A DNA stretch of 35,667 nucleotides from NCBI GenBank assembly GCA_016936215.1, contig JAFGPL010000066.1:1-35667 (forward strand), in the 5' to 3' direction. How positions within the stretch are numbered: the stretch's first letter is position 1; each line of letters starts with the position of its first letter. Positions 15,142 through 32,016 of this stretch are shown here, piece by piece. Both the position numbers and the translations under genes were made by a program. This DNA is from Bacteroidales bacterium (lineage in GTDB: Bacteria; Bacteroidota; Bacteroidia; Bacteroidales; UBA10428). Below the pieces are notes generated by a model that saw only the letters and a list, made by a program, of their open reading frames with translations, made no database searches and was not told the DNA's origin.

Positions 15142-16308
15142 CTATCTAAACTCTCTGAATTTGTCAAAATCAAGGCCCAGGGTAAACCTCATGGTATTGG
15201 CAAGCGGGTTGGCCCTGCCTGAGGTTGGTATAAGGTATGAAAAATCAAGCGAGAATACGTTTAGTTTCAGGCCAACACCTGCGGTAAAATATTTCCTGTT
15301 GCCTTTTTTCTGATGTTCATGAAAATACCCGGCCCTTATGGCAAACTGGTCGCGGTACCAGTATTCCGCACCAACAGAGATCATGATCTCTTGTATTTCC
15401 TCACTGAACCCGTTTGGTGCATCATAGAAAGACTGTATCCAACTCATCGGGAGGGATTTTGGTGCTTCAAGCCCGAAAACAACCGAATCAACAGTCATTT
15501 GGGGCGATGGCACAAGCAGTTTGTTAAAGTCTGTCGCAAAGCTGATGTTATTATAATCATCAAGGTCAAGTGTCAATCGTCCTCCTACTCTAAGGTTGGC
15601 AGGGATAAACTGTTTTTCCGAATCATCGGTGTAAGAGATCGGGGTACCGAGGTTTGAAAGGCTCACTCCCCATGCATACTGGCTTGGTTTGCCATCAATT
15701 TCTATATCTTTCTGGTAATAAACGGCAAGGTCGGCAGCAAATGAAATGCCGGCATTGTATTCCTGTCCCAAAACCGATCCTCCGCCAGTAATGTCGGAAC
15801 GTATAAATCTTAATGTAAGGGCACTTGAAAGATTATCAGTAAATAATCTTGAATAAGCAGCATCTAATGTAAATTCATTTGGCCGGTAGGTGTTAATGTA
15901 ACCACCGAAGTTGTCGGTGAAAACGATATCGCCCAGGGAGAAATATAGCAATGATGCGCTAAGTACCTGCTTGTCGTCGAACCGCTTGTAAAAATTCAAA
16001 TATGCCAGGTTAATATCGTTAACAAGGTTTCTCAGCCAGGGTGTATAAGATAACGAGAGTCCCATTTCACCCGGGAGAAAAACATATTTGGCAGCATTCC
16101 AGTGTTGCGAACCGGCATCCGGTTTGGTGGCGACACCAACATCGCCCATTGCCCCTGCCCTTGAATCAGGTGCAATAGAAAGAAAAGGAACTGTGGAATG
16201 GATAGGATTGGCTTCTCCTCCCAATAATTCACTGGTACTGGATTGGGAGAAACCATTTAATGCTATGATAACAATGATAAATGAGAATGCAAATCTTTTT
16301 AAAATCAT
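15142..16308 (-). CDS. porV: Type IX secretion outer-membrane protein PorV (LptO)
   Basis: This 388-residue protein has a signal peptide (about 1-22, ending GFSQ), then the family N-terminus SSTSELLGGEANPIHSTVPFLSIAPDSRAGAMGDVG and alternating amphipathic strands of a FadL-like outer-membrane beta barrel. PorV shuttles cargo carrying C-terminal sorting domains from the SprA translocon to the PorU sortase complex. The ATG at 16308 is chosen over 16344, because the upstream extension is charged and would precede the signal peptide. It lies 61 bases downstream of porU and three bases upstream of ispF, giving a porU-porV-ispF operon. Confidence 0.93.
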   Translation of the reverse strand: MILKRFAFSFIIVIIALNGFSQSSTSELLGGEANPIHSTVPFLSIAPDSRAGAMGDVGVATKPDAGSQHWNAAKYVFLPGEMGLSLSYTPWLRNLVNDINLAYLNFYKRFDDKQVLSASLLYFSLGDIVFTDNFGGYINTYRPNEFTLDAAYSRLFTDNLSSALTLRFIRSDITGGGSVLGQEYNAGISFAADLAVYYQKDIEIDGKPSQYAWGVSLSNLGTPISYTDDSEKQFIPANLRVGGRLTLDLDDYNNISFATDFNKLLVPSPQMTVDSVVFGLEAPKSLPMSWIQSFYDAPNGFSEEIQEIMISVGAEYWYRDQFAIRAGYFHEHQKKGNRKYFTAGVGLKLNVFSLDFSYLIPTSGRANPLANTMRFTLGLDFDKFREFR

Positions 16309-16369
16309 TACTTTTTTAATTTTTGTGGAGCAAATATAAAACATAATATTACAATATGAAATTGAGAAA

Positions 16370-19300
16370 CTATTTTAATATCATTAACTTTTCAAATTTT
16401 ACGGCAAGCAGCCCATCAGAATTTCCGACAGTTACACGATACGGGTAAACGCCATTCGGCAATATGTTGCCATATTGATCTGTACCATCCCATTCAATTG
16501 GTTCCGACCTGTACCCCGATGCATACGAATTAAGGTTTATTATACGAACAGCCTTTCCTGAAAAATCAAAAATTTCTATCTTAATAAACAAATCATCATC
16601 CGGTTTATTGTGCTCAAACTGAAAAAAAGTTTGTTCGCCAAACGGATTAGGATAATTGTAAACTTTGTCAAGTACCAGTGCATTTGCATCTATTACCCTG
16701 AAGGTGATCATTTTTTCGGAAGAATTATTGAAAATATCCCAAACTTTAACATTGATGGTATGTAACCCGGGTTCAATGTCGTTCAACTGGTACATCACTT
16801 CACCGCTGCGGTAATCATTTGCCTGTGACTGATAATAGTCGTTCATAACAAACGGATTGGAGGTGTTTTTATCAAGCACGGCTACAATGTCGTGCCCTAT
16901 TCCGGTGCCAGTTGTGTTAATGCCATATTCATCAAAAACTTTAACATATACCCTGGGGTCTTTATCAGAAATCCCCCCATCCCTGAAATTTTCATCATTC
17001 AGGTAAACCTCAAGTTCGGGGCCTGTATTGTCCCCGAATAACTGATCTGAAGTGCCACCGATTAGAAAATTACTGAAATAACCGTTTGCATCAAGTGAAT
17101 CGTTGTATGCATAATAGTTAATTTTACCCTTCCCAATGGTATAGGAAATGTCTTTCGGAACTATAAATGTAAATTTAAACTTTCCGTTTGTGACACTTGC
17201 TTTTCCCCTGAAAAGCAGGTTTTCCTGCACTTCGAAACTTAGGGGACTGGTGTTTGCATCGTTTTGCAGCGTGGTTACCTGTTGTACTTTATCAAAAATT
17301 GTGGGGATGATTGTTCCGTTGAAATTATCATAAGGCACACTGTCTTTGTTCTGGACGTGGCCGGTGACAGTGAGTTCCGTAAATGCCTTTATCGTGTCGT
17401 TTAAACTGTTCACATCATTTCCGTTGATAGAGTCGGTAACTATATTGAAATCAGCATAGGCAAGGTCCATTGCAGGGTCTCCCAAAAGTGTAAAATTCAT
17501 TTTATTGTTATCGCTCCCGATGGCAATTTTTGAAAACCTCACTATGTCGCCAAGTCTTCGGCGGCTGCCATCTTCATTGGTTTTAAAAGCATTGTAATAG
17601 AAATGGCGGTTGAGGTAATGATTGCTGTGCGAGTATACAACCCTGGTAGTCGTAAACAGTGCAATAGCGCCGCCTTCTGGGTTTAAAAGGGCTACCTCTC
17701 CGGCAGAAGTCATTTCTTCGGGCTTTCCGTTTTCGCTGTTTATAGCCATGTCGTCCCAACGGCTGAATTCACAGGTGGCAGTGATAAACAGCGGGTACTT
17801 GTTCTTGTTCCTGAGTTTTTCCAGGTCTTGTTTAATCAATATTTGTTCTTCAGATATTGCATTTTCGTTTCCATGTCCAGTATAATTGAAAATCAGTAAT
17901 CCTTTGTTAAAGTTGTCAAGTATAGCCCTGTTTACATCGGGATACCTGTTGCCGGTAGAAGATGTAACCTGTTTGTAGGCATCAAGCAGAATCTTTTTCA
18001 CCACAAACTCGGGATGGCTTGTCCTAATATAATCTGCCAGTTGGTTTGCCTGTTCCATGTGGTCGTTTCCATCCTGGTCATCGCCGACAAAAAGCAGCGT
18101 GTTTCTCCAGTCCTGTTTTGCTTCGGGCGTATTGTACGCGAGTATTTTATCAACCATGCCTTTTGCTTCAATGGTATCGCTTGCAGGCAGGCGCCCGATT
18201 CCGATATCAAGGTAATAATAGTGCATCGAATCGCTTCCTCCTTCATTTTTATCGAGAAATCCGAAGAAATCGTCCGATACATATGAGGTTGTATGCCCCA
18301 GCGATGTAGATGACTGATAGGTAGGGATATAGTTCGGGTTACCATCAGCATTTGATATGTTGTTATACGAGCCGTCGCCAAAAAGCAAAAGATATCTCAG
18401 GCTGTTCCCGCCCGATTGCGACCTTTCGTAAATCATCCTTGCAAAATCCCTTATGGCGCTGACATCGGGCATTCCAGAAGAAAACTCATTATAAACTTTT
18501 TCAGTTGTGGTGGTAATAACGCTAAAATTATCCTTTTGCCTGTGATATTCAGCTATTCTTTCAGCCTGATGTGTAAAAAGCGGATGGGTTACGATGATCA
18601 TTTTATGTGCCCCCAGGCCATGAAGGTTTTGGTTTTCCAACAGGTTATTATCGAAATTAATAACAGGCTTCAGAAAAGTTGTTTGCAGGTCGAATGCAAC
18701 AAATTCCCTTAAGACAGAGGTTTCGGCCCTGAAGGTTACTTCCTGGCCCGATTGGGTGGCTGGAACAGATTTAATATTGTACATATCGGTAATATCCCAT
18801 ACTATTGTCTGGTTGTCAGTGTTTTGAATCCTGAATTCGGCAATGTTTCCTTCTGCCACCGATCGGGTGTCCCTGAAAAATAATGGCTTTTCGGAAATGG
18901 CAAGCGACCTGCGGGCATTTACTGTAATGTAGTCGAGCCAACCTTCATCTGATTCTTCTGTTTTATTGTATGAAATTTTCACGGCAATATTGTCCCCGCT
19001 GGAATTGAACCGCATAGTTTTTTGGCTTTGTACAGCATATGTGCCTACATTGTAGTTTATATTTACGCTGCCAACATTTATAATTTCTGTATGCTGGTTA
19101 TTGAAAATGAAGGTAAAGGTGCGTTGTTTGGCCGAACGGTTGATAACGTTTGATTTTACAACTACTTCAGAGCCCGGTACCAGGTTTGGAAACCTGAAAG
19201 TGGTGTCATAAGTTTTTCCATAGATAAATTTCTCACCAAACCATTGCCTTCCTGACTTTATATCATTATAAAGGTTTCTTTCGTGATAATCGTATGCATC

Positions 19301-20227
19301 AAAAGAGGTTACTGTTGTATTTGGAGGGGAAGTGACAATTCCGGCTTCGGTAATTCTTTTACCGGGCCCCAGCGACGAGGTGAGAAAATAACAGGCATAT
19401 TGGGAATAATCGTTGAGTGAATGCAGAAAAATTGAATCAGCTTTGTTATAGTTCCATGCAACCATACCGTGGGCATAAAACAATATATAATCGCCCTGGT
19501 TAAAAATACCATCGCTTCCTTTTTCCATAAATATTGCATTTTCTGCCAGGTCGTCCACGCGCGGCTCACGGTTCATTAAGGGCACTGCTTTGCCTCCGTT
19601 ACCATATACCCTCACATCAGCAGGGTTTGAAATACCCATGTTCTGAAGGTCTGAAAAGGTGAGTTTGTATATTCCGGTTTGGGTTATTTTTATTTTATGC
19701 CAGGTGCCTGATGCAAGTACCGATTCCGTGGCAAATTCTTCAGCTACGTTCATAAGTTTTGAAACTGCCATGCGATTTTTATCAGACTGAACCTCGACCG
19801 AAAATGAAACCAGTTTTTCAACCTGTCCGGTTCCGGGGTTTCTTCTTAAGGGTAAAATACTTATTAGCGCCTGTTCCCCGGTTTTATTATAAACCCTGTT
19901 TACATTCACTTTAATCTCGGAAGGAAGCTCCCCGATCATTTGTATGTTCTCCAAATCTTCAACAGAAACTTGCTGATATACAGGATTTGTAATATTTATT
20001 TTTTGAACATTATAATATTTTTCAGTTGTTAACAGTTCATTATAATATGGAAAGAGGGTATTCGGATTTTCATATACTGCACCTTCAAAAAAGAGATATT
20101 TTCTTGAAATATCGGAGTTGGAAAAAACTTTTTTGCTGTTGCGCCAATCCAGTGATCTTTCCATAACCGGTTTCTGACCAAAGAGTGGGACAGTGAATAA
20201 TGTTAATAAAATAAATAGGTTCTTCAT
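16370..20227 (-). CDS. porU: Type IX secretion sortase PorU (C25 gingipain-like peptidase)
   Basis: This 1285-residue secreted protein has a signal peptide (about 1-17). A long N-terminal region precedes the C25 cysteine-peptidase domain with H785 in NYTGHGNENAIS and C819 in FITATCEFSRWDD, the expected His-Cys spacing. Ig-like segments follow, then a C-terminal sorting domain that begins near YNYPNPFGEQTFFQF and ends PNGVYPYRVTV...MILK. PorU removes the C-terminal domain of type IX cargo at the cell surface and attaches A-LPS. Both catalytic residues are present, so it is expected to be active. It is the promoter-proximal gene of the porU-porV-ispF unit and diverges from the PorP/SprF gene; no good minus-strand promoter was found in the 117-base gap. 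Confidence 0.95.
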   Translation of the reverse strand: MKNLFILLTLFTVPLFGQKPVMERSLDWRNSKKVFSNSDISRKYLFFEGAVYENPNTLFPYYNELLTTEKYYNVQKINITNPVYQQVSVEDLENIQMIGELPSEIKVNVNRVYNKTGEQALISILPLRRNPGTGQVEKLVSFSVEVQSDKNRMAVSKLMNVAEEFATESVLASGTWHKIKITQTGIYKLTFSDLQNMGISNPADVRVYGNGGKAVPLMNREPRVDDLAENAIFMEKGSDGIFNQGDYILFYAHGMVAWNYNKADSIFLHSLNDYSQYACYFLTSSLGPGKRITEAGIVTSPPNTTVTSFDAYDYHERNLYNDIKSGRQWFGEKFIYGKTYDTTFRFPNLVPGSEVVVKSNVINRSAKQRTFTFIFNNQHTEIINVGSVNINYNVGTYAVQSQKTMRFNSSGDNIAVKISYNKTEESDEGWLDYITVNARRSLAISEKPLFFRDTRSVAEGNIAEFRIQNTDNQTIVWDITDMYNIKSVPATQSGQEVTFRAETSVLREFVAFDLQTTFLKPVINFDNNLLENQNLHGLGAHKMIIVTHPLFTHQAERIAEYHRQKDNFSVITTTTEKVYNEFSSGMPDVSAIRDFARMIYERSQSGGNSLRYLLLFGDGSYNNISNADGNPNYIPTYQSSTSLGHTTSYVSDDFFGFLDKNEGGSDSMHYYYLDIGIGRLPASDTIEAKGMVDKILAYNTPEAKQDWRNTLLFVGDDQDGNDHMEQANQLADYIRTSHPEFVVKKILLDAYKQVTSSTGNRYPDVNRAILDNFNKGLLIFNYTGHGNENAISEEQILIKQDLEKLRNKNKYPLFITATCEFSRWDDMAINSENGKPEEMTSAGEVALLNPEGGAIALFTTTRVVYSHSNHYLNRHFYYNAFKTNEDGSRRRLGDIVRFSKIAIGSDNNKMNFTLLGDPAMDLAYADFNIVTDSINGNDVNSLNDTIKAFTELTVTGHVQNKDSVPYDNFNGTIIPTIFDKVQQVTTLQNDANTSPLSFEVQENLLFRGKASVTNGKFKFTFIVPKDISYTIGKGKINYYAYNDSLDANGYFSNFLIGGTSDQLFGDNTGPELEVYLNDENFRDGGISDKDPRVYVKVFDEYGINTTGTGIGHDIVAVLDKNTSNPFVMNDYYQSQANDYRSGEVMYQLNDIEPGLHTINVKVWDIFNNSSEKMITFRVIDANALVLDKVYNYPNPFGEQTFFQFEHNKPDDDLFIKIEIFDFSGKAVRIINLNSYASGYRSEPIEWDGTDQYGNILPNGVYPYRVTVGNSDGLLAVKFEKLMILK

Positions 20228-20344
20228 GGAATTATTTATATTTTTTCACGAAAATAATAAAATTAAATACTATCGGATAAACGATTATATTAAACGAACA
20301 ACAATAGTAATTATTGTATAACAACAAACCGGAAAAAGAGTTAA

Positions 20345-21319
20345 TTGAAAAAGATAAGCTTCATATTGATTTTTATGGCTGTTTTTATGCAACAACATGC
20401 CCAGGACCAGCATTATTCGGGGTTTTTACCTACACTTGTTTACACAAACCCATCCTCTGCAGCAGCAGCAGGCAGTATGCAGTTTGGGGCTACATACAGA
20501 AACCAGTGGCCCGGGCTTAAAAATGTTTATTCCACATACAGTACCGTCTTTATCCTGCCGGTTGAAAACCTTAGAAGTTCATTTGGTTTGAGCCTTGTTC
20601 ACGATAATCAGGCACAGGGGGCTATCCTGAGATCAGCAGTAAACGGAATATATGCTTATTCTGTCGAAGTGTCTGATAATTTTAATATCTCAGCAGGTTT
20701 GGGTTTGGCTTATGTTTTCAGGAGTGTAAGCGGCAGGAACCTTATATTTGAATCCGATCTTACAGGAAATCCAATAATTTCAGAACCAATTGATTACGGA
20801 AATTTAAAGTCGGGTTATGGTGACTTTTCACTTGGTTTATCAGCATTTTATGATGATGTGTTTTTTTCGGGCATTTCTGTCAACCATTTTACCAGCCCCG
20901 ATGAACACGAGGGGACTTCAGGTTTAACCCCTCTTGCAAGAAGATACTCTTTTTATGCCGGTGGTATGATTGATATGGTAAAAGGAAGGAACAGCCGTGA
21001 TATTTTTTTACTGCCAGGAATTATTTTTCAACAACAGAAAAACCTTCAGGAAATTTACTATGGCGCAAATTTCATGATAGAGCCTTTTATTTTTGGTTTG
21101 TGGGCAAGACAAGACCTTAAATTCCATTTTGATGCCATTGTACTGAATACCGGATTTACCTGGCAACAATACAATATTTATTATAGTTATGACGTTAATG
21201 TTCAAAATATGAAATTTTTTTCTGAAGGAATGGGCGCTCATGAAGTAACTTTTTTAATCAATTTTCAGTATAATGTGAAAAGAAAAAAAAGAGGGGCAAT
21301 AAAATGCCCGAAGATTTAG
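20345..21319 (+). CDS. PorP/SprF-family type IX secretion outer-membrane protein, TTG start
   Basis: This 324-residue protein has a signal peptide (KKISFILIFMAVFMQQHAQ) followed by the hallmark family N-terminus DQHYSGFLPTLVYTNPSSAAAAG and the pattern of a beta barrel. Some PorP/SprF proteins anchor particular adhesins or gliding structures; others belong to the core ring. An in-frame TAA lies immediately before the TTG at 20345, and the first ATG, at 20375, would cut the signal peptide. TTG is therefore the likely initiator. Its position between porU and gldJ suggests a role with this secretion machine rather than with one adhesin. A basic C-terminus (KRKKRG) is unusual for a barrel end. Confidence 0.88.
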   Translation: MKKISFILIFMAVFMQQHAQDQHYSGFLPTLVYTNPSSAAAAGSMQFGATYRNQWPGLKNVYSTYSTVFILPVENLRSSFGLSLVHDNQAQGAILRSAVNGIYAYSVEVSDNFNISAGLGLAYVFRSVSGRNLIFESDLTGNPIISEPIDYGNLKSGYGDFSLGLSAFYDDVFFSGISVNHFTSPDEHEGTSGLTPLARRYSFYAGGMIDMVKGRNSRDIFLLPGIIFQQQKNLQEIYYGANFMIEPFIFGLWARQDLKFHFDAIVLNTGFTWQQYNIYYSYDVNVQNMKFFSEGMGAHEVTFLINFQYNVKRKKRGAIKCPKI

Positions 21320-24723: not shown

Positions 24724-26571
24724 CTAATAGCCTGGGTTTTGATAGGCTTCTTTTTCCTCGTCTGTATTGTCCATATTGTCAAACTGACTTGCAGGAATTG
24801 GCCGGAGATAGTGTTTGGTTTCAATGGGACGGGTATGTGTAACTGCGACAAAACTATTTGCCTCGCACATGGTATATGTTCCTGCATATTCCTCAAGTTT
24901 TCCTGTACGTGTAAGATCGTACCAACGAAGGTTCTCTGCATAAAGTTCGCGGGAACGTTCCATAAGGATAAAGTCAATATCAATGGTTGCAGGTGTTGCA
25001 GCTACCATTTCAGCGCCATGGCCGGGCATTCCTGCCCTTTCACGAATTACGTTCACAAGGTCTCTTGCAGTGTATCCTCCCTGTGTTGCAGCCCCTTTAA
25101 CAGCAGCTTCTGCAGCAACCAGGTAAGTTTCAGAAAGCTTGGCAATGGGAAAGGGCCGGGTAGAGGCATCGTTTTTCAGAGGGCCGTCAGGGGTCTTTTC
25201 ATCCCTGTTGGGGCCGAATTTCCAGACTGAAGGATAGCTATGTCTTGTAATCAGGGATGGTGACCAGACACCATATGCCCTGTCAGCATAGTACCTGAAT
25301 TTACCGGATGATTCGCGCAACAGGTTAGCAGTGTCTGCATCCGTAGGCGGGAAGTAGAAAACTGTATCGTCATTGTTTATATCAATACCATTCATTCCCT
25401 TTAATACTGTTCCGTCCCAACTGGTCCTTCCCTGGTAGTTTGCCCGGAAAACTGTAACAAAGGTGCCGTCGAACCTTGTATCTAATGCCCTGTCTGCTAA
25501 CGGAAATGTTTTGGTAAAAACTTCGTGGGTAGGGGTAAGCAGCCTCCATGGGCGTCCAACATCTTGAATAGCCTGGCGATAGATAAATTTATTTCCATTT
25601 ACAGACATTTCAAAGTCCATATTCATGGCAAAAGATGAACGGTTAGATTTCAAATTATTACTTGCATTGGAACCCCAGCTATTTGCTGTACTCTCGTCAT
25701 AAAGGTAGCTGCTGGCTGTATGGTCGGCACATAGCAAAATTTCGCTGTTGTAATCGTTTTCGGCCAGGTTAACTTCCCTAAATGTAGGTTGGAGTCCAAA
25801 AGGGGCTGGATTTTTCAATGCTTCAACAGCTACATCATATGCCAATTGATAATACTGCGCCGGTGATTTGCCATTGGGGTCTGTCTTGCTGTTTCGTTCC
25901 AGCCACCATGCATACGTAAGATAAGCTTTTGCCAAAAAATGTTGCGCAGCAATTTTGTTTGTTGCACTGGTTGTGCGGGGTGTGGCCGGAAGTTCATCAA
26001 CTGCATCTTCCAGGTCGGGTAAAATGGTTTTCGTATAAACATCTTCCACCACATCACGGGCAGATAAACGCGACGGAGTGGTGTTGAATTTCAATTCCCC
26101 GGAACCTAAATCAAGCGGGGCATCACCAAAGGTGGTTACAAGCAGGAAATAATTAAATGCACGAAAGAATTTTGCTTCGGCAACAAGCGAAGCTTCTACG
26201 CCTGCCTCGGTGCCTTTCTCGATTATCCCATTGCATGTATTGATAGCGGGAAATGTATTATTCCAGATAGTTGTAAGGCCGCCATTACCGGCAAGAATGT
26301 TGTATGAATCCAGATCTAATCCATAGCCATCTTTATTATCGCCATAGGTAGCCTCATCGGTACCTCCAACAGCAAGGTACATCATACCTGCAGGACCATA
26401 TATCCATCGCAGTTGAGAGTATACAGACGTAAGCCCTGATTCTATGCCCTGCTCTGTAAGGAAGAAATCCGGGGTCATTATTGAGCGGGGTTGTTCCTCT
26501 AAAATATCTGAGCAGGAAGGGATAAGAAACAATGCAACTGCTGCAAATATTGAAAATAGTATATTTTTCAT
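24724..26571 (-). CDS. SusD/RagB-family nutrient-binding surface lipoprotein
   Basis: This 615-residue protein has a lipoprotein signal peptide with lipobox LIPSC (C20), then the family start SDILEEQPRSIMTPDFFLTEQG, helical TPR-like repeats, and the C-terminal SusD signature (LVNVIRERAGMPG, DFILMERSRELYAENLRWYDLTRTGKLEEYA, HYLRPIPASQFD). SusD lids SusC and captures glycan or other oligomers at the cell surface. It follows the susC-like gene after 22 bases and ends the operon. The ligand cannot be read from the sequence. The partner genes suggest an acetylated glycan. Confidence 0.95.
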   Translation of the reverse strand: MKNILFSIFAAVALFLIPSCSDILEEQPRSIMTPDFFLTEQGIESGLTSVYSQLRWIYGPAGMMYLAVGGTDEATYGDNKDGYGLDLDSYNILAGNGGLTTIWNNTFPAINTCNGIIEKGTEAGVEASLVAEAKFFRAFNYFLLVTTFGDAPLDLGSGELKFNTTPSRLSARDVVEDVYTKTILPDLEDAVDELPATPRTTSATNKIAAQHFLAKAYLTYAWWLERNSKTDPNGKSPAQYYQLAYDVAVEALKNPAPFGLQPTFREVNLAENDYNSEILLCADHTASSYLYDESTANSWGSNASNNLKSNRSSFAMNMDFEMSVNGNKFIYRQAIQDVGRPWRLLTPTHEVFTKTFPLADRALDTRFDGTFVTVFRANYQGRTSWDGTVLKGMNGIDINNDDTVFYFPPTDADTANLLRESSGKFRYYADRAYGVWSPSLITRHSYPSVWKFGPNRDEKTPDGPLKNDASTRPFPIAKLSETYLVAAEAAVKGAATQGGYTARDLVNVIRERAGMPGHGAEMVAATPATIDIDFILMERSRELYAENLRWYDLTRTGKLEEYAGTYTMCEANSFVAVTHTRPIETKHYLRPIPASQFDNMDNTDEEKEAYQNPGY

Positions 26572-26593: not shown

Positions 26594-29500
26594 TTAAAAT
26601 GTTACGTTAATTCCAAAAAGGAAATTGCGAGTAGCAGGAGTATTGTAACCCACAACATAAACGCGGTCTTTAACAACCCCGTTGTTGTTACTTGGAGCCA
26701 CAGCCTGATTATGGATATCATCACTGGTTGAATTAGGTTGTGGGTCTAACCCTGTTTCAGAATAATAATCAGATGCAAATACTAAAGGATTTTGTGCCGT
26801 AACATATAATCTCAATTTATCTATTTTAGCCCTTGACAGTAGTTCTGTTTTGAAATTGTATGCCAGGGTAATGTTGGATATCTTAATATATGAAGCATCA
26901 AAATAAGCCAGGGTACTTCCGTATTTCGGATGATTTGTTACTTCCGGACCGTAAGGTTTGGGATAAGCATTGGTTGGATTGTCTAAAGTCCAGTAGTCAA
27001 TTTCTAATTGTCCGCGACGACCGTTATTCATGTTTAAATAACTTGTTGGAGAGTGAATAGCGCTTACAAGAATCCCCCCGCTTTTGAAATATCCAATAAC
27101 CGAAAGATCCAGTCCTTTGTAGCCAACCCTTGTATTGAAGCCACCCTGAAAGTCGGGTTCAATTGAGCCAAGAATCTGGCGATCATCGTCTTCGAGCGTC
27201 TGGCCTGTACCAATTTGTCTTACGGGGTCTCCATTTACATCGTATTCGCCGGTATACTCTACTTTAATCATTCCAACCTCACCGGTAGAACCTTCGTATT
27301 TAACGACTTCAGACTCTTCACCAAGCTGCCATATACCAATTTTGTTGAAGTCATATATTACATCAATAGGGTGTCCTACAAACCATCCATTGCCTTTGTC
27401 ATATTCCTGTCCGCTTGCAAGGGCAACAATTTTATTGCGGTTGGCATAAAAATTGAACCCAAGGTCCCATGACCAACCGTTGTTATCTTTTATAATTGCT
27501 GCATTAAGGGATAGTTCCACACCTTTGTTTTCAGTTTTGCCAATATTTGTCATAAATGATTCGGTTACACCTGATGTCCTTGGTAAACTTTGAGCTACAA
27601 GTACGTCTTCTGTTTTCTGTGAATAATATTCAAAGGTACCCATTAAACGGTTGGAGAAAAGGCCAAAGTCTATTCCGTAGTTCCAGGTCGTTGAATACTC
27701 CCATCCTAAATTTAAATTTGGGGACTGTGAAACATAGTAACCGCTTACATTACTGTTACCGAAGTTATAATAGTTGGTAGATAACTTGCCCATGGTCTGG
27801 TATGGCATAATTGCCTGGTTGGATGTTTGCCCGTAACCTAACCTCAGTTTCAGATAACTAAGCCAGGTAACAGGTTTCAGAAACTCTTCATTTGTAGCAT
27901 TCCATCCAAGCGAAAGTGCCGGGTATGTATGCCATTTATGGCCATCTGCCAAAACTGAAGAACCATCTGAACGAATGGTAGCAGTAAGTAAATATTTATC
28001 GTCAAAGGCATAATTGGCACGAAACATGGCAGAAGTTAAACCTCTTTTATAATAATCCTGTTCTTCAGGGTCTACAATAATTTTACCATCATCGGTCAAC
28101 AAACCGAAATTAAAGTACTGAAGATATTCGGCGGTAACATTTTCGGCTTTAATCCTTGACACACTGCTTTCAGTCTGTTCATTTGAATACATGGCCACAA
28201 GGTTGACACGGTGCTTTTGGGCAAATGTTTTGTCGTAATATAAAAGGTTTTCGACCACCCAGTTTTTAATCAGGTCGTTTTCAATAGTTGCATATGATCT
28301 TTCATCACCGTTGTAAGGGGTCTTTTCTCCTCGGAAATTACCATAATTGCCTTGCCGGTAATTAAGCCCTACATTTATATGGTATTTAAGGCCTTCAATT
28401 ATTTGAAGTTCGCCATAAATGTTATTATACGAGGCAGTTGTTTTTCTTTCGTCTATCCATTTGTCACCCAGGCTGTTTATCATTAAAGGGTTATAGTAGG
28501 TATCCATGTTGTTAATGTACATCTGTTCGGTTTTTATTGAACCGTCTGCATTATATGGATTGGTGACGGGGGTTAGGGAAAGAATGGTACCCAGCGGATT
28601 ACTTTCTTCCCCACCAATTGTTCCGAATGAATTTATTGAACTGATCCCGATTTTTATCCTGTTGCCAATTTTCTGGTCAAAACTTCCCCGAATTGAATAT
28701 CTTTCGAAATCTTGTCCGGGCAATACGGTAGTCTCATTGTAATATCCTGCCCCGAAACTATAACCGCCGCCTTCTGTTTTGCCGGCAACACTTAAATCAT
28801 GGCTGTTCACTTTACCTTGTTCAAACATCAGATCCTGCCAGTCGGTATTCAGCGTTGAGTCCTCATCGGCCCCGTATGTCCAGCTTGCCCCATTGTTAAT
28901 AGCTTCCCGGCGCCAGCTAACAAATTCATCAGCCTCCATCATCGGATACCTGTTCATAAGATTTTTAATGCCGTAATACCCGTTATAATTTACCACTGGT
29001 TTTGATAAAGCGTAGGATTCACCTTTAAAAGTAGTAACCAAGATGACACCATTTGCCCCACGTGAACCATATATTGCAGTAGCTGAAGCATCTTTCAATA
29101 TGTCTACACTCCTTATATCGTTAGGGTTTATATCATTGAGTGAACCGGCAAACGGAATACCGTCAAGAACAATAAGGGGGTCATTACTTGCTGTAAGCGA
29201 ACGTGTGCCACGAATGCGAATTTGCATGTTAGAACCTGGCCGTGAGGAAGTTTGTGTCATTTCTACACCGGCAACCCTTCCTTGCAATGCTTGTGAAAGA
29301 TTAGAAGAAGCATTTTCTCGAATGCCTTCGCTGTTTACCGAGACTATTGACCCGGTAACATCTACCCTGCGTTGTGTGCCATAACCAACCACTACAACCT
29401 CTTCAAGTGCCTCAAGGCTTTCTGAAAGGGTGATGCTGATGGTGGTCTGGGAACCAACTTCAACTTCCTCGTTAAGGTAACCGATAAATGAAAAGACAAT

Positions 29501-30025
29501 TACAGATTGCGGTGAGCCTACTGTTAGAGAATAATTACCGTCTGTATCTGTAACTGCCCCGTTGGTGGTACCTTTCTCTACTATATTTACACCGGGCAAG
29601 GGATTGTTTTCAGAGTCAATAACCCTTCCGGTAACCACTATGCCCTGCGATGCATTGCTTTTAGGCACAATCACTACAAAATTATTTTCGAGAATTTTAT
29701 AATCAAGCGAGGTGTTTTCTAACAAAAGAGCAAGAACGCTTTCAATTTTCTCGTCTTTTGTTTTGAGGGTAACAAGATTCTCAAGATCGGCATACCGGTC
29801 GTTGAAGAAAAAAGCATATTCGGTTTTGTTTTCAATTTCGCGAAACAGGTCGCGCAACTGAATATTCTCTACCTGTATGCTCAGCTTCTTGTTTTGTGAG
29901 TAAACATTTGCTGTTACATTCAGAACAGCTAACAAACTAATTAAAACAGATAGTTTCATAGTTAATAATAGTCTTTTAGGTAAGGTTCCTGTTATTAAGG
30001 AGCCAATAATTAGGATTAATTTCAT
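26594..30025 (-). CDS. SusC/RagA-family TonB-dependent transporter with STN signalling domain
   Basis: This 1143-residue outer-membrane protein starts with an extended N-terminus and a signal peptide ending VTANVYSQ near residue 44. An STN domain (about 48-120) is followed by a carboxypeptidase-D-regulatory-like domain (about 129-203, GRVIDSENNPLPGVNI). The EEVVVVGYGTQRR TonB-box/plug region (about 208-335) with LQGRVAGVEMTQ and YGSRGANGVILVTT comes next, then a 22-strand barrel to the C-terminal FLFGINVTF. The STN domain is the hallmark of transporters that signal to a FecR anti-sigma when substrate binds, matching the fecR and ECF sigma genes upstream. The leader holds a candidate antisense RNA. 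Confidence 0.96.
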   Translation of the reverse strand: MKLILIIGSLITGTLPKRLLLTMKLSVLISLLAVLNVTANVYSQNKKLSIQVENIQLRDLFREIENKTEYAFFFNDRYADLENLVTLKTKDEKIESVLALLLENTSLDYKILENNFVVIVPKSNASQGIVVTGRVIDSENNPLPGVNIVEKGTTNGAVTDTDGNYSLTVGSPQSVIVFSFIGYLNEEVEVGSQTTISITLSESLEALEEVVVVGYGTQRRVDVTGSIVSVNSEGIRENASSNLSQALQGRVAGVEMTQTSSRPGSNMQIRIRGTRSLTASNDPLIVLDGIPFAGSLNDINPNDIRSVDILKDASATAIYGSRGANGVILVTTFKGESYALSKPVVNYNGYYGIKNLMNRYPMMEADEFVSWRREAINNGASWTYGADEDSTLNTDWQDLMFEQGKVNSHDLSVAGKTEGGGYSFGAGYYNETTVLPGQDFERYSIRGSFDQKIGNRIKIGISSINSFGTIGGEESNPLGTILSLTPVTNPYNADGSIKTEQMYINNMDTYYNPLMINSLGDKWIDERKTTASYNNIYGELQIIEGLKYHINVGLNYRQGNYGNFRGEKTPYNGDERSYATIENDLIKNWVVENLLYYDKTFAQKHRVNLVAMYSNEQTESSVSRIKAENVTAEYLQYFNFGLLTDDGKIIVDPEEQDYYKRGLTSAMFRANYAFDDKYLLTATIRSDGSSVLADGHKWHTYPALSLGWNATNEEFLKPVTWLSYLKLRLGYGQTSNQAIMPYQTMGKLSTNYYNFGNSNVSGYYVSQSPNLNLGWEYSTTWNYGIDFGLFSNRLMGTFEYYSQKTEDVLVAQSLPRTSGVTESFMTNIGKTENKGVELSLNAAIIKDNNGWSWDLGFNFYANRNKIVALASGQEYDKGNGWFVGHPIDVIYDFNKIGIWQLGEESEVVKYEGSTGEVGMIKVEYTGEYDVNGDPVRQIGTGQTLEDDDRQILGSIEPDFQGGFNTRVGYKGLDLSVIGYFKSGGILVSAIHSPTSYLNMNNGRRGQLEIDYWTLDNPTNAYPKPYGPEVTNHPKYGSTLAYFDASYIKISNITLAYNFKTELLSRAKIDKLRLYVTAQNPLVFASDYYSETGLDPQPNSTSDDIHNQAVAPSNNNGVVKDRVYVVGYNTPATRNFLFGINVTF

Positions 30026-30032
30026 AAATTTG
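30025..30032 (+). promoter_or_regulatory. Perfect plus-strand -7 box opposite the susC-like start codon
   Basis: TAAATTTG fully matches TAnnTTTG on the strand opposite susC and overlaps the first base of its start codon. A TTTG element at the expected distance (about 30001-30005) is absent. It would start transcription near 30039, toward the terminator at 30082-30116. Confidence 0.4.
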
Positions 30033-30038
30033 ATTGTT

Positions 30039-30116
30039 TTAGTTCAACATTAGTTTCTAATCGTTGGAATAATTCTTTCTGAATCGGAAAATGTTGCCGC
30101 ATTTTCCGATTTTTTT
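30039..30116 (+). ncRNA. Putative cis-antisense small RNA against the susC-like leader
   Basis: Nothing codes on the plus strand here. A perfect TAnnTTTG box (30025-30032) and an intrinsic terminator with a T-run only on the plus strand (30082-30116) would produce an RNA of about 78 bases. It would be complementary to the susC messenger just upstream of its start codon, between fecR and susC. Cis-encoded antisense RNAs at this position, such as DonS, repress susC homologues in Bacteroides glycan loci regulated by ECF sigma/anti-sigma pairs. The analogy is strong by position and orientation, but the -33 element is missing and expression is unproven. Confidence 0.45.
30082..30116 (+). terminator. 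Plus-strand intrinsic terminator inside the susC-like leader
   Basis: A perfect 12-base stem, AATCGGAAAATG / CATTTTCCGATT, with loop TTGCCG is followed on the plus strand by five T residues, G and four more T. On the minus strand it is followed by CAGAAAG, so it would not terminate the fecR-susC transcript. No protein gene on the plus strand needs it. Confidence 0.75.
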
Positions 30117-30182
30117 GTTTTGTTCTTGGTTATGTCATGGTTTTTAAAATTTAAGGTTAATAATTAAGGTTCAGATAAAAGG

Positions 30183-31316
30183 TTAAGATTTTTCACCATT
30201 TTTGAAGTTTTTATTAAAATGCAGCCGTACTTTTTTACCTTCAATGGTGTAGTTGATCGGCGATGTAAGTTTAAGCGCATGCAATACCTGTTCAAGCGGG
30301 AAGTCCCGTAAAGTTCCCGAGTAGGAGTAAGACTTCAGGTTTTCATTTTCAAAAACAAAAACCACATCGAATTTTCTTTCAAGTTTTTTGGCGAGGCTCT
30401 CCAGCGATTCTTTATTTATGATAAGTGTGCCGCTCGTCCACGATACAGATTCCTGTGTGTCAACATTTTGTTTTAGTTCAATCTCTTTATTCAATTCTAC
30501 AGCCTTTACCTGCCTGGTTTGTTCAACTGTTTTTGACTCTTTTCCACCTTCATCTGCCGGTGCTACAACAGAACCGGCATCTATTTTACGATAGGTGAGC
30601 TTTTCTTTAGGCTTTAATAAAATTGTTTTTTTCTCCTTAGAGGTCTCAATTTTTATGGCACCCTCAACCAATGTTGTTTCAATGTTTTCGTCATCGGGAT
30701 ATGATTTTACGTTAAAAACTGTCCCCAGCACTTCAACATCCAGGTGTGATGTATGAACTACGAAAGGATATTTTTTCTTCTCCACATCAAAGTATGCTTC
30801 TCCTTCAAGGTAAACATCCCGTGAAATGATGTCGAAATTTCTGTTGTATCGAATTTTGCTCCCGGCATTCAGCCATACCTTACTGCCATCGGGCAAAATA
30901 ATATTTGATCTTCCCCCGTAAGGAACAACAATTTCACAAACGGCATTGTCTATTTTATTTTTTTTGCCTTTGCCGGCAAAAAATGCAGTAGTGCCTATGA
31001 TAACCAGTAATATTGCTGCCGCCGAATATTTAATGATTACATGGCGTAGTTTCAGGACTTTTTGTTTTCTTTTGGTTTTCGTCTTTTCTTCAGCTTCTGA
31101 AATATTTCTTCTAAATCTTTCAATGGCTTTTTCCAGCGAATTGTCTTCCCCGGTAATACCTGCCAGTGATTCAATATACTCTTTTTTTAACCTGATAAAA
31201 TACTCCCTGTTATGGACATTTTCATCCAACCATTTGGTTAGGTGTTCAATCTCATTGTCAGATGCATTTCCGCTAAAATACCTGAACAAAAAATTTTTGT
31301 CTGCAATAAAATTCAT
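30183..31316 (-). CDS. FecR-family anti-sigma factor
   Basis: This 377-residue inner-membrane protein has an N-terminal cytoplasmic sigma-binding part (FLFRYFSGNASDNEIEHLTKWL), one transmembrane helix at about 96-115, and a periplasmic FecR domain (VPYGGRSNIILPDGSKVWLNAGSKIRY, DVYLEGEAYFDV, VLGTVFNVKSYPDDENIETTLVEG). A linker of about 45 mostly charged residues leads to the C-terminal DUF4974-like domain (SLESLAKKLERKFDVVFVFEN, GTLRDFPLEQVLHALKLT). It holds the ECF sigma inactive until contact with the SusC STN domain. It starts 130 bases after the sigma gene and may have its own sigma-dependent promoter. Confidence 0.95.
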   Translation of the reverse strand: MNFIADKNFLFRYFSGNASDNEIEHLTKWLDENVHNREYFIRLKKEYIESLAGITGEDNSLEKAIERFRRNISEAEEKTKTKRKQKVLKLRHVIIKYSAAAILLVIIGTTAFFAGKGKKNKIDNAVCEIVVPYGGRSNIILPDGSKVWLNAGSKIRYNRNFDIISRDVYLEGEAYFDVEKKKYPFVVHTSHLDVEVLGTVFNVKSYPDDENIETTLVEGAIKIETSKEKKTILLKPKEKLTYRKIDAGSVVAPADEGGKESKTVEQTRQVKAVELNKEIELKQNVDTQESVSWTSGTLIINKESLESLAKKLERKFDVVFVFENENLKSYSYSGTLRDFPLEQVLHALKLTSPINYTIEGKKVRLHFNKNFKNGEKS

Positions 31317-31446: not shown

Positions 31447-32016
31447 CTAAAAGGTGAAAAAATCGTTGAGGGCGGTCCGCAAAACTTTAAGTGTTTTGGT
31501 GATATGATATTCAACGGTTTTGATGTTGATATTCAGCAATTCAGCTATCTTCCTGTTGCTGTTATCCTTTTCTTTGCTTAGCAGGAAAATCTGTCGTGTT
31601 TTTTCAGGAAGCAATTGATAGGACTCGTTCAGGATTCTTTGTATTTCGGTTAGCTGTAATTCAGAAAAATTAAAGTCGCCTGATGAATTGTAGAGTAATT
31701 CTGCTTCCTTGAGTTTCAGGCGGTGCCTTTCCTCATATGCAGCAGTAACTTTCATATGGCGCAGATGCTGGATACACTTGTTGTGCACCGCGCGAAAAAG
31801 GTACGATGATACCGATGTGGTTATGAATGTTTCTTTTCTTTTATTCCAAAGGTGTAGAAAAATATCCTGCACAATATCTTCTGCCGTGTCCCTGTCTGAA
31901 ATGTAGCTTCCGGCATAAAGTACCATACGGCTGTAAAAACATCTGAACAGCTTGTCGAAAACAACCTTATCTCCTTGTTTTAACCGGTTTATGATATGTC
32001 TTTCATCCTTGTCCAT
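31447..32016 (-). CDS. ECF-type RNA polymerase sigma factor (FecI-like)
   Basis: This 189-residue protein has sigma region 2 (VFDKLFRCFYSRMVLYAGSYI, DTAEDIVQDIFLHLWNKRK) and region 4 with a helix-turn-helix (LPEKTRQIFLLSKEKDNSNRKIAELLNINIKTVEYHITKTLKVL), with neither region 1 nor 3. Paired with the downstream fecR and STN-type susC, it should activate the susCD genes on substrate sensing. Its ATG lies 28 bases inside the 3' end of the lacI-like gene in another frame, so translation may be coupled to, and transcription shared with, the LacI regulator. That is an unusual arrangement. Confidence 0.94.
   Translation of the reverse strand: MDKDERHIINRLKQGDKVVFDKLFRCFYSRMVLYAGSYISDRDTAEDIVQDIFLHLWNKRKETFITTSVSSYLFRAVHNKCIQHLRHMKVTAAYEERHRLKLKEAELLYNSSGDFNFSELQLTEIQRILNESYQLLPEKTRQIFLLSKEKDNSNRKIAELLNINIKTVEYHITKTLKVLRTALNDFFTF

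Follow-up and report, generated by a model that had tools for sequence, protein, structure and literature searches.

What is encoded on the plus strand opposite the start of susC in this Bacteroidales locus? The window (the whole 35,667-nt stretch of DNA that we analysed, which is one contig of a 5.3-Mb assembly) carries on its minus strand, in this order, genes for LacI, an ECF sigma factor and FecR, a gap of 157 nt, susC and susD. Comparison with relatives strongly supports the presence of a gene for an antisense RNA opposite the susC leader, and we think it likely that its product is a cis-antisense RNA, about 80 nt long, which pairs with the leader and lowers the expression of susC. The features concerned are as follows.

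24724–26571, minus strand: susD
26594–30025, minus strand: susC, the presumed target, assigned by domain content (STN, CarbopepD_reg_2, Plug, TonB-dependent barrel)
30025–30032, plus strand: candidate −7 box of an antisense promoter, TAAATTTG, which overlaps the start codon of susC (from the sequence and the recurrence of its position)
30036–30117, plus strand: predicted antisense RNA of about 80 nt (5′ end predicted from the box, at the G opposite susC −11; 3′ end predicted within the T-run)
30039–30072, plus strand: predicted 5′ stem-loop of the antisense RNA (computed fold)
30081–30116, plus strand: intrinsic terminator with a perfect 12-bp stem, the loop TTGCCG and a T-run (from the sequence, the fold and a match to covariance model R1)
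30136–30140, minus strand: candidate element of the susC ECF promoter, with the sense-strand sequence CCATG (CTATG in relatives) 29 nt upstream of the hairpin
30183–31316, minus strand: FecR-type anti-sigma factor
31447–32016, minus strand: ECF sigma factor

Elsewhere in the window (15142–21319), a Peptidase C25 gene adjoins PorV and PorP/SprF genes in a type IX secretion cluster. A gene set with susC, susD, PorV and PorP/SprF points to Bacteroidota as the source.

The box and the hairpin opposite the susC leader

The box TAAATTTG matches TAnnTTTG perfectly and begins with the base opposite the A of the susC ATG (minus strand, 30025–30023). About 50 nt further along the plus strand is a hairpin (30082–30111) that reads AATCGGAAAATG-TTGCCG-CATTTTCCGATT, has 12 Watson-Crick pairs (14 when the outer ones are counted) and leads into TTTTTTGTTTTG. 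Read on the minus strand, the same stem leads into CAGAAAG, so the T-run belongs to the plus strand alone. The preliminary description had reported the box, the 12-bp hairpin with its plus-only T-run, and an absence of plus-strand protein genes, and direct reading of the sequence bears it out on each point, with correct coordinates and no plus-strand ORF of at least 20 aa overlapping 29980–30140.

The computed plus-strand RNA fold of 30078–30116 has a free energy of −16.7 kcal/mol (z −6.04), and that of 30038–30116 has −23.6 kcal/mol (z −6.23). Between 20001 and 35667 there are 19 terminator-like sites (shuffle mean 13.7, s.d. 3.8), with the hairpin listed second among them; R1, of which the hairpin is a training sequence, gives it 52.3 bits. 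TAnnTTTG by itself is no commoner than chance (36 occurrences in the window against 46.7 expected), so that the case for the box rests on its position, strand and recurrence. No TTTG is present 19–21 nt upstream of the box at 30025, and a −33 element is thus not seen there; in related gaps an informal count found few CAA or CAAA at the expected place. In F. johnsoniae, too, the −33 box escaped identification (PMC7366714).

An RNA delimited by the box and the T-run is predicted to be about 80 nt long, close to the 78 bases proposed in the preliminary description, and would leave the susC start codon itself uncovered. Applied to 45 related gaps with terminators, the same assumed rule for the 5′ end gives lengths of 46–169 nt (median 102). 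The predicted length is 70–83 nt, a range that is partly set by the pattern, for 66 of the 67 loci that are SusC-like among the first 80 matches listed from a pattern scan (see below). In 21 of 42 gaps, sense-strand CTATG is found 24–38 nt upstream of the hairpin, compared with a mean of 0.34 and a maximum of 3 in shuffles, and the CTATG/CCATG site may be part of the ECF promoter of susC. A two-block motif, TTAAY-N10–18-YTATG, was rejected as a promoter signature; it is found in only 13 of 64 gaps, and the promoter argument therefore rests on CTATG at its set distance.

Recurrence of the unit in related fecR–susC gaps

A FecR search of 60 relatives gave 73 matches that were parsed, from which 64 gaps preceding a SusC-like gene were kept. 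Nine were left out, either for too little sequence (L014, L082, L083 and L087), for a run of N (L042), or with another FecR as the next gene (L040, L041, L044 and L052); L010 was retained despite a susC cut by the contig end, and the susC start was moved by hand in L019, L028 and L085. An antisense terminator (score of at least 12) is present in 45 of the 64 gaps and a sense-strand terminator in two, and in 20 sets of dinucleotide shuffles of these gaps the mean number with a terminator is 0.05 (maximum 1 of 64). TAnnTTTG is found at the identical place over the start codon in 38 of the 64; a perfect box is missing from 26 gaps and the terminator from 19. The two elements occur together, with the box in 34 of the 45 gaps that have a terminator versus 4 of the 19 that do not (Fisher p 7e-5), which argues that the box is not explained by mere start-codon context. 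Among 180 control ORFs, drawn from thirteen 20-kb stretches of five related genomes and from the window, CAAANNT directly precedes the ATG in one, and that one is the window susC itself; each control ORF was assigned its first ATG as its start, which blurs the start context. The gaps include paralogues and loci of sister species, and this kinship makes p-values such as these too small.

Conservation of the fecR–susC gap, which the preliminary description had put forward as a check, gave a divided answer. Many of the more distant paralogues keep the box and the hairpin, whereas the three nearest orthologues (L010, L011 and L012, with FecR proteins 54, 50 and 47% identical to that of the window) have neither TAnnTTTG at the start codon nor a terminator over the threshold, with a degenerate stem retained in L010. 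In the genome from which the window comes, seven of the eight loci in which a gap separates fecR from a clear susC carry the unit (L009, L037, L039, L060, L070, L079 and L102, the last judged by eye from the sequence and the others by score), the exception being L080. In five further loci of this genome (L103, L104, L105, L107 and L108), where the next gene is weakly SusC-like (49–110 bits) and the gap is short, no unit was seen; in L106 the next gene is of another kind, and in L041 it is a second FecR. A FecR search of named genome contigs gave no close relatives. The state of the three nearest orthologues speaks against strict conservation; individual loci appear to acquire or lose the unit one by one.

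Structure, strand and proposed mechanism

R1 was built from an alignment that began with 26 hairpins having six-base loops, of which five of another shape (L023, L025, L027, L043 and L069) were left out. The remaining 21 align without gaps, with 97.8% of cells paired. In these 21 hairpins, nine of the 11 stem pairs have changed on both sides, a result matched by none of 500 shuffles, and slid pairings reach 42–47%. The 21 were picked by shape, with a ranking that favours a TG...CA apex, so that conservation of the apex within the alignment is partly a matter of selection. When antisense terminators are picked regardless of apex, however, ATG-loop-CAT is found in 28 of 45, while the outer stem varies. 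In the window this apex occupies 30091–30102, and it is more than a terminator alone needs; it may be a contact site for a protein or for a loop–loop interaction.

We propose that a housekeeping-sigma promoter (TAnnTTTG) over the susC start codon would direct synthesis of an RNA that starts near 30036 and is complementary to the greater part of the susC leader. The terminator (30082–30116) would end this RNA before it reaches the presumed ECF promoter for susC. Pairing of this RNA with the leader would reduce the output of susC, and of susD downstream, for as long as FecR holds the ECF sigma factor, the simplest mechanism being a loss of susC mRNA or of its translation. With the ECF promoter switched on, the antisense promoter would in turn be silenced by sense transcription running across it. 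The analysis shows the anatomy of the DNA, its recurrence by strand and its covariation; transcription, pairing, repression, the site of the ECF promoter and mutual exclusion are all steps that we infer.

The main rival to this proposal is transcription interference in which the RNA plays no part: the promoter and terminator would act through transcription itself, with colliding polymerases holding susC down, and the terminator would serve only to keep antisense read-through away from fecR and the susC promoter. It predicts the same anatomy, with a promoter over the start codon and a terminator short of the presumed susC promoter, and it sits well with the finding that the sequences of the RNA body differ between paralogues. 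Against it, folding of the 5′ part in 44 family members is better than in mononucleotide shuffles (mean z −2.57 for the antisense strand and −1.88 for the sense strand), and this, like the recurrent apex of hairpins that were chosen blind to it, suggests that the RNA is selected as such, short of proving it. We regard interference alone as unlikely. That the antisense 5′ part has the lower free energy (−14.4, compared with −9.4 for the sense strand) was discarded as an argument, the difference being largely an effect of composition.

A second alternative assigns the hairpin to the other strand, as a sense element in the susC leader that affects mRNA stability or translation, and takes the box for start-codon context. 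The hairpin does fold on the minus strand (−14.3 kcal/mol), where it would lie in the susC leader, and A at −14 and −13 and C at −12 are found in some gaps that have no terminator as well. We consider this reading improbable given the T-run, which follows the stem on the antisense strand in 45 of the 64 gaps and on the sense strand in two, and given that CAAANNT before ATG is tied to the terminator and met just once among the controls. The wobble pairs point in the same direction. In a strand-neutral search for stems, G-U pairs permitted on the antisense strand outnumber those permitted on the sense strand by 54 to 8; in 32 distinct stems of named records, found with a pattern that leaves the seven outer pairs free, the ratio is 31:3 among the matches listed, and in 37 stems from all 119 matches listed it is 35:3. 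The antisense strand is rich in T and G, so that shuffles are already skewed (419:163, a ratio of 2.57), and the excess that remains over this composition null is moderate (p 0.010 for 54:8 and 0.015 for 31:3). This control weakens the asymmetry as a decisive proof of strand, and the one-sided T-run is the stronger evidence. In the 5′ part of the RNA the wobbles give no strand signal (26:10, p 1.0).

It is very improbable that box and hairpin came together by chance at this one locus, or that they are a decayed remnant that is no longer expressed. TAnnTTTG is not enriched in the window and the nearest orthologues have lost the unit, as such an origin would lead one to expect; yet the stem, T-run and box of the window are all intact in their conserved positions, and the unit is retained by paralogous loci elsewhere in this genome. 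Finally, the idea that the ATG of the hairpin opens a leader peptide is hardly credible: the minus-strand ORF in question (30022–30102, 26 codons, its stop overlapping the susC ATG) is a chance one by comparison with 101 relatives, in which the median is 10 codons, as it is with shuffled downstream sequence, and at least 20 codons are reached in 17 of 101, compared with 22% of shuffles.

Breadth in Bacteroidota and comparison with known systems

R1 takes no account of FecR; searched against 296 genomes from the phylum, it has a match at E ≤ 0.1 in 75 of them. A SusC-like frame starts opposite the match in 9 of 9 cases at E ≤ 1e-5, 18 of 20 at 1e-4, 27 of 36 at 1e-3 and 38 of 65 at 1e-2; matches between 1e-3 and 1e-2 lie at SusC starts in just 11 of 29 cases, and the weaker ones are largely other terminators. 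These counts derive from 68 matches at E ≤ 0.01, of which 65 were classified, three of them from the window's own genome; the others are two opposite-strand matches of palindromes and one from the own genome (C181, the same as L060). A search of 296 genomes from the order gave matches at E ≤ 0.01 in 74, and among the matches listed a SusC-like frame lies opposite in 28 of 29, three of which are training sequences.

Scanning named genome contigs with a pattern that combines the hairpin and the start codon identified at least 119 stretches; this set and the sample of phylum genomes overlap in part (the contigs of G080:C11 and L290 are of equal length). Among the matches listed, SusC-like starts account for 98 of 119, and all 82 of these SusC-like loci that have at least 1000 nt of sequence show a FecR-like gene upstream. 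The base that decides TTTG is C in 57 and T in 41 of the 98 listed SusC-like loci and never A or G, while A and G together make up 45% at the same place in control genes. By title, 116 of the 119 listed loci are from Bacteroidota (the exceptions are L195, L254 and L272). The listed SusC-like loci are mostly from Flavobacteriaceae, with others from Echinicola, Draconibacterium, Sunxiuqinia, Plebeiobacterium and two MAGs titled Prevotella. Named carriers include Flavobacterium hungaricum (L182), Zobellia russellii (L210) and species of Maribacter and Arenibacter, and one of the SusC-like loci (L265) is in a record with the title Flavobacterium johnsoniae CI04. L254, on a contig titled as a Chlorobiota MAG, has the element at a SusC-type receptor, through either a mis-binned contig or transfer. 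In a family of 101 genomes around one pattern locus, 73 have matches, irrespective of context.

Thirteen of the 21 loci that are not SusC-like have N-termini of the isocitrate-lyase type, two are cut by the end of the locus (L181 and L270), and the others are L186, L195, L211, L229, L269 and L272. A similar antisense hairpin lies opposite the isocitrate lyase start in several flavobacteria, as identified by Pfam ICL (L187, L135 and L234) or by shared N-termini of two kinds, judged by eye (L190, L197, L213, L217, L224, L257, L276, L284, L280, L287 and L295). This gene of the glyoxylate shunt may carry the same antisense device.

Relatives also show an enrichment of hairpins inside the susC frame, at codons of about +16 to +50 (for example L078, L022 and L231), that is weak in the window. 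Such hairpins with a score of at least 8 are present in 38 of 63 loci (codon-shuffle mean 15.5, maximum 20) and with a score of at least 9 in 25 of 65 named loci among the matches listed (6.95, maximum 12), and their wobbles have no clear strand preference (14:12 and 9:5).

Taken together, the same layout before many susC genes across Bacteroidota makes the antisense unit probably a widespread brake on sugar uptake. We lean somewhat towards the broader view that it represents a phylum-wide family of structured antisense RNAs, with a promoter at the susC start codon and, at the other end, a covarying hairpin whose apex is often ATG-loop-CAT, that forms a regular third part of ECF/FecR SusCD loci from Flavobacteriaceae to Bacteroidales, a device that in some flavobacteria is also fitted to isocitrate lyase. 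If so, many ECF/FecR sugar-uptake loci of the phylum would carry an antisense layer that has a computable signature.

Several known RNAs and motifs invite comparison. FopS binds the start regions of susC genes and represses them (PMC11697453). Like GibS, it is a small RNA of Bacteroidales, as the RNA of the window would be; FopS differs in acting in trans through a seed. The RNA of the window is not FopS: the FopS model (RF04319) gives the window 18 bits against a cut-off of 56 and has no match in the window's own genome at E ≤ 1e-5. FopS is found in 83 of 393 genomes of the order and is absent from the seven genomes of the same family among those listed. In ten FopS-bearing genomes, an antisense terminator is present at 10 of 28 SusC loci (22 of which have a gap of at least 30 nt) and a sense terminator at none, with the box at seven of the 28, six of these together with a terminator. 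Rfam 15 yields no match at gathering score in the window or in 18 of the 119 named loci, and no credible match at permissive thresholds. HMP2_1032, a palindromic motif of 106 bp found only in Bacteroidetes and most often near a TonB gene, is presented in the available text of its report as terminator-like, with a predicted Rho-independent terminator, rather than as an antisense RNA (PMC8040213); judging by that description, it might be part of the same family.

The closest parallel is with the DonS type. The preliminary description places such RNAs between an anti-sigma gene and susC. DonS-type RNAs measure 78–128 nt and are antisense and divergent to susC homologues (PMC7366714), and in B. 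thetaiotaomicron 32 antisense RNAs associated with PULs have been annotated, with repression shown for one PUL antisense RNA in B. fragilis (PMC10994844). The RNA of the window would likewise be encoded in cis opposite the 5′ end of a susC homologue, and its predicted length of about 80 nt, with an assumed 5′ end, would fall within the DonS range (PMC7366714). The preliminary description had assigned it to this class in a different lineage; the terminators, box, covariation and recurrence strongly support a gene for an antisense RNA opposite the susC leader, and that it works like DonS of Bacteroides is, by likeness of layout, the best reading. PUL-associated antisense RNAs have been reported in Bacteroides, and in the literature searched we found no report of antisense RNAs opposite susC elsewhere in the phylum. 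The family described here is from other lineages than the DonS type, and it is characterised by a shared covarying hairpin and a candidate promoter box fixed on the start codon. The layout and the probable DonS-like function are familiar, and what would be new is the wider structured family to which the RNA of this locus would belong.
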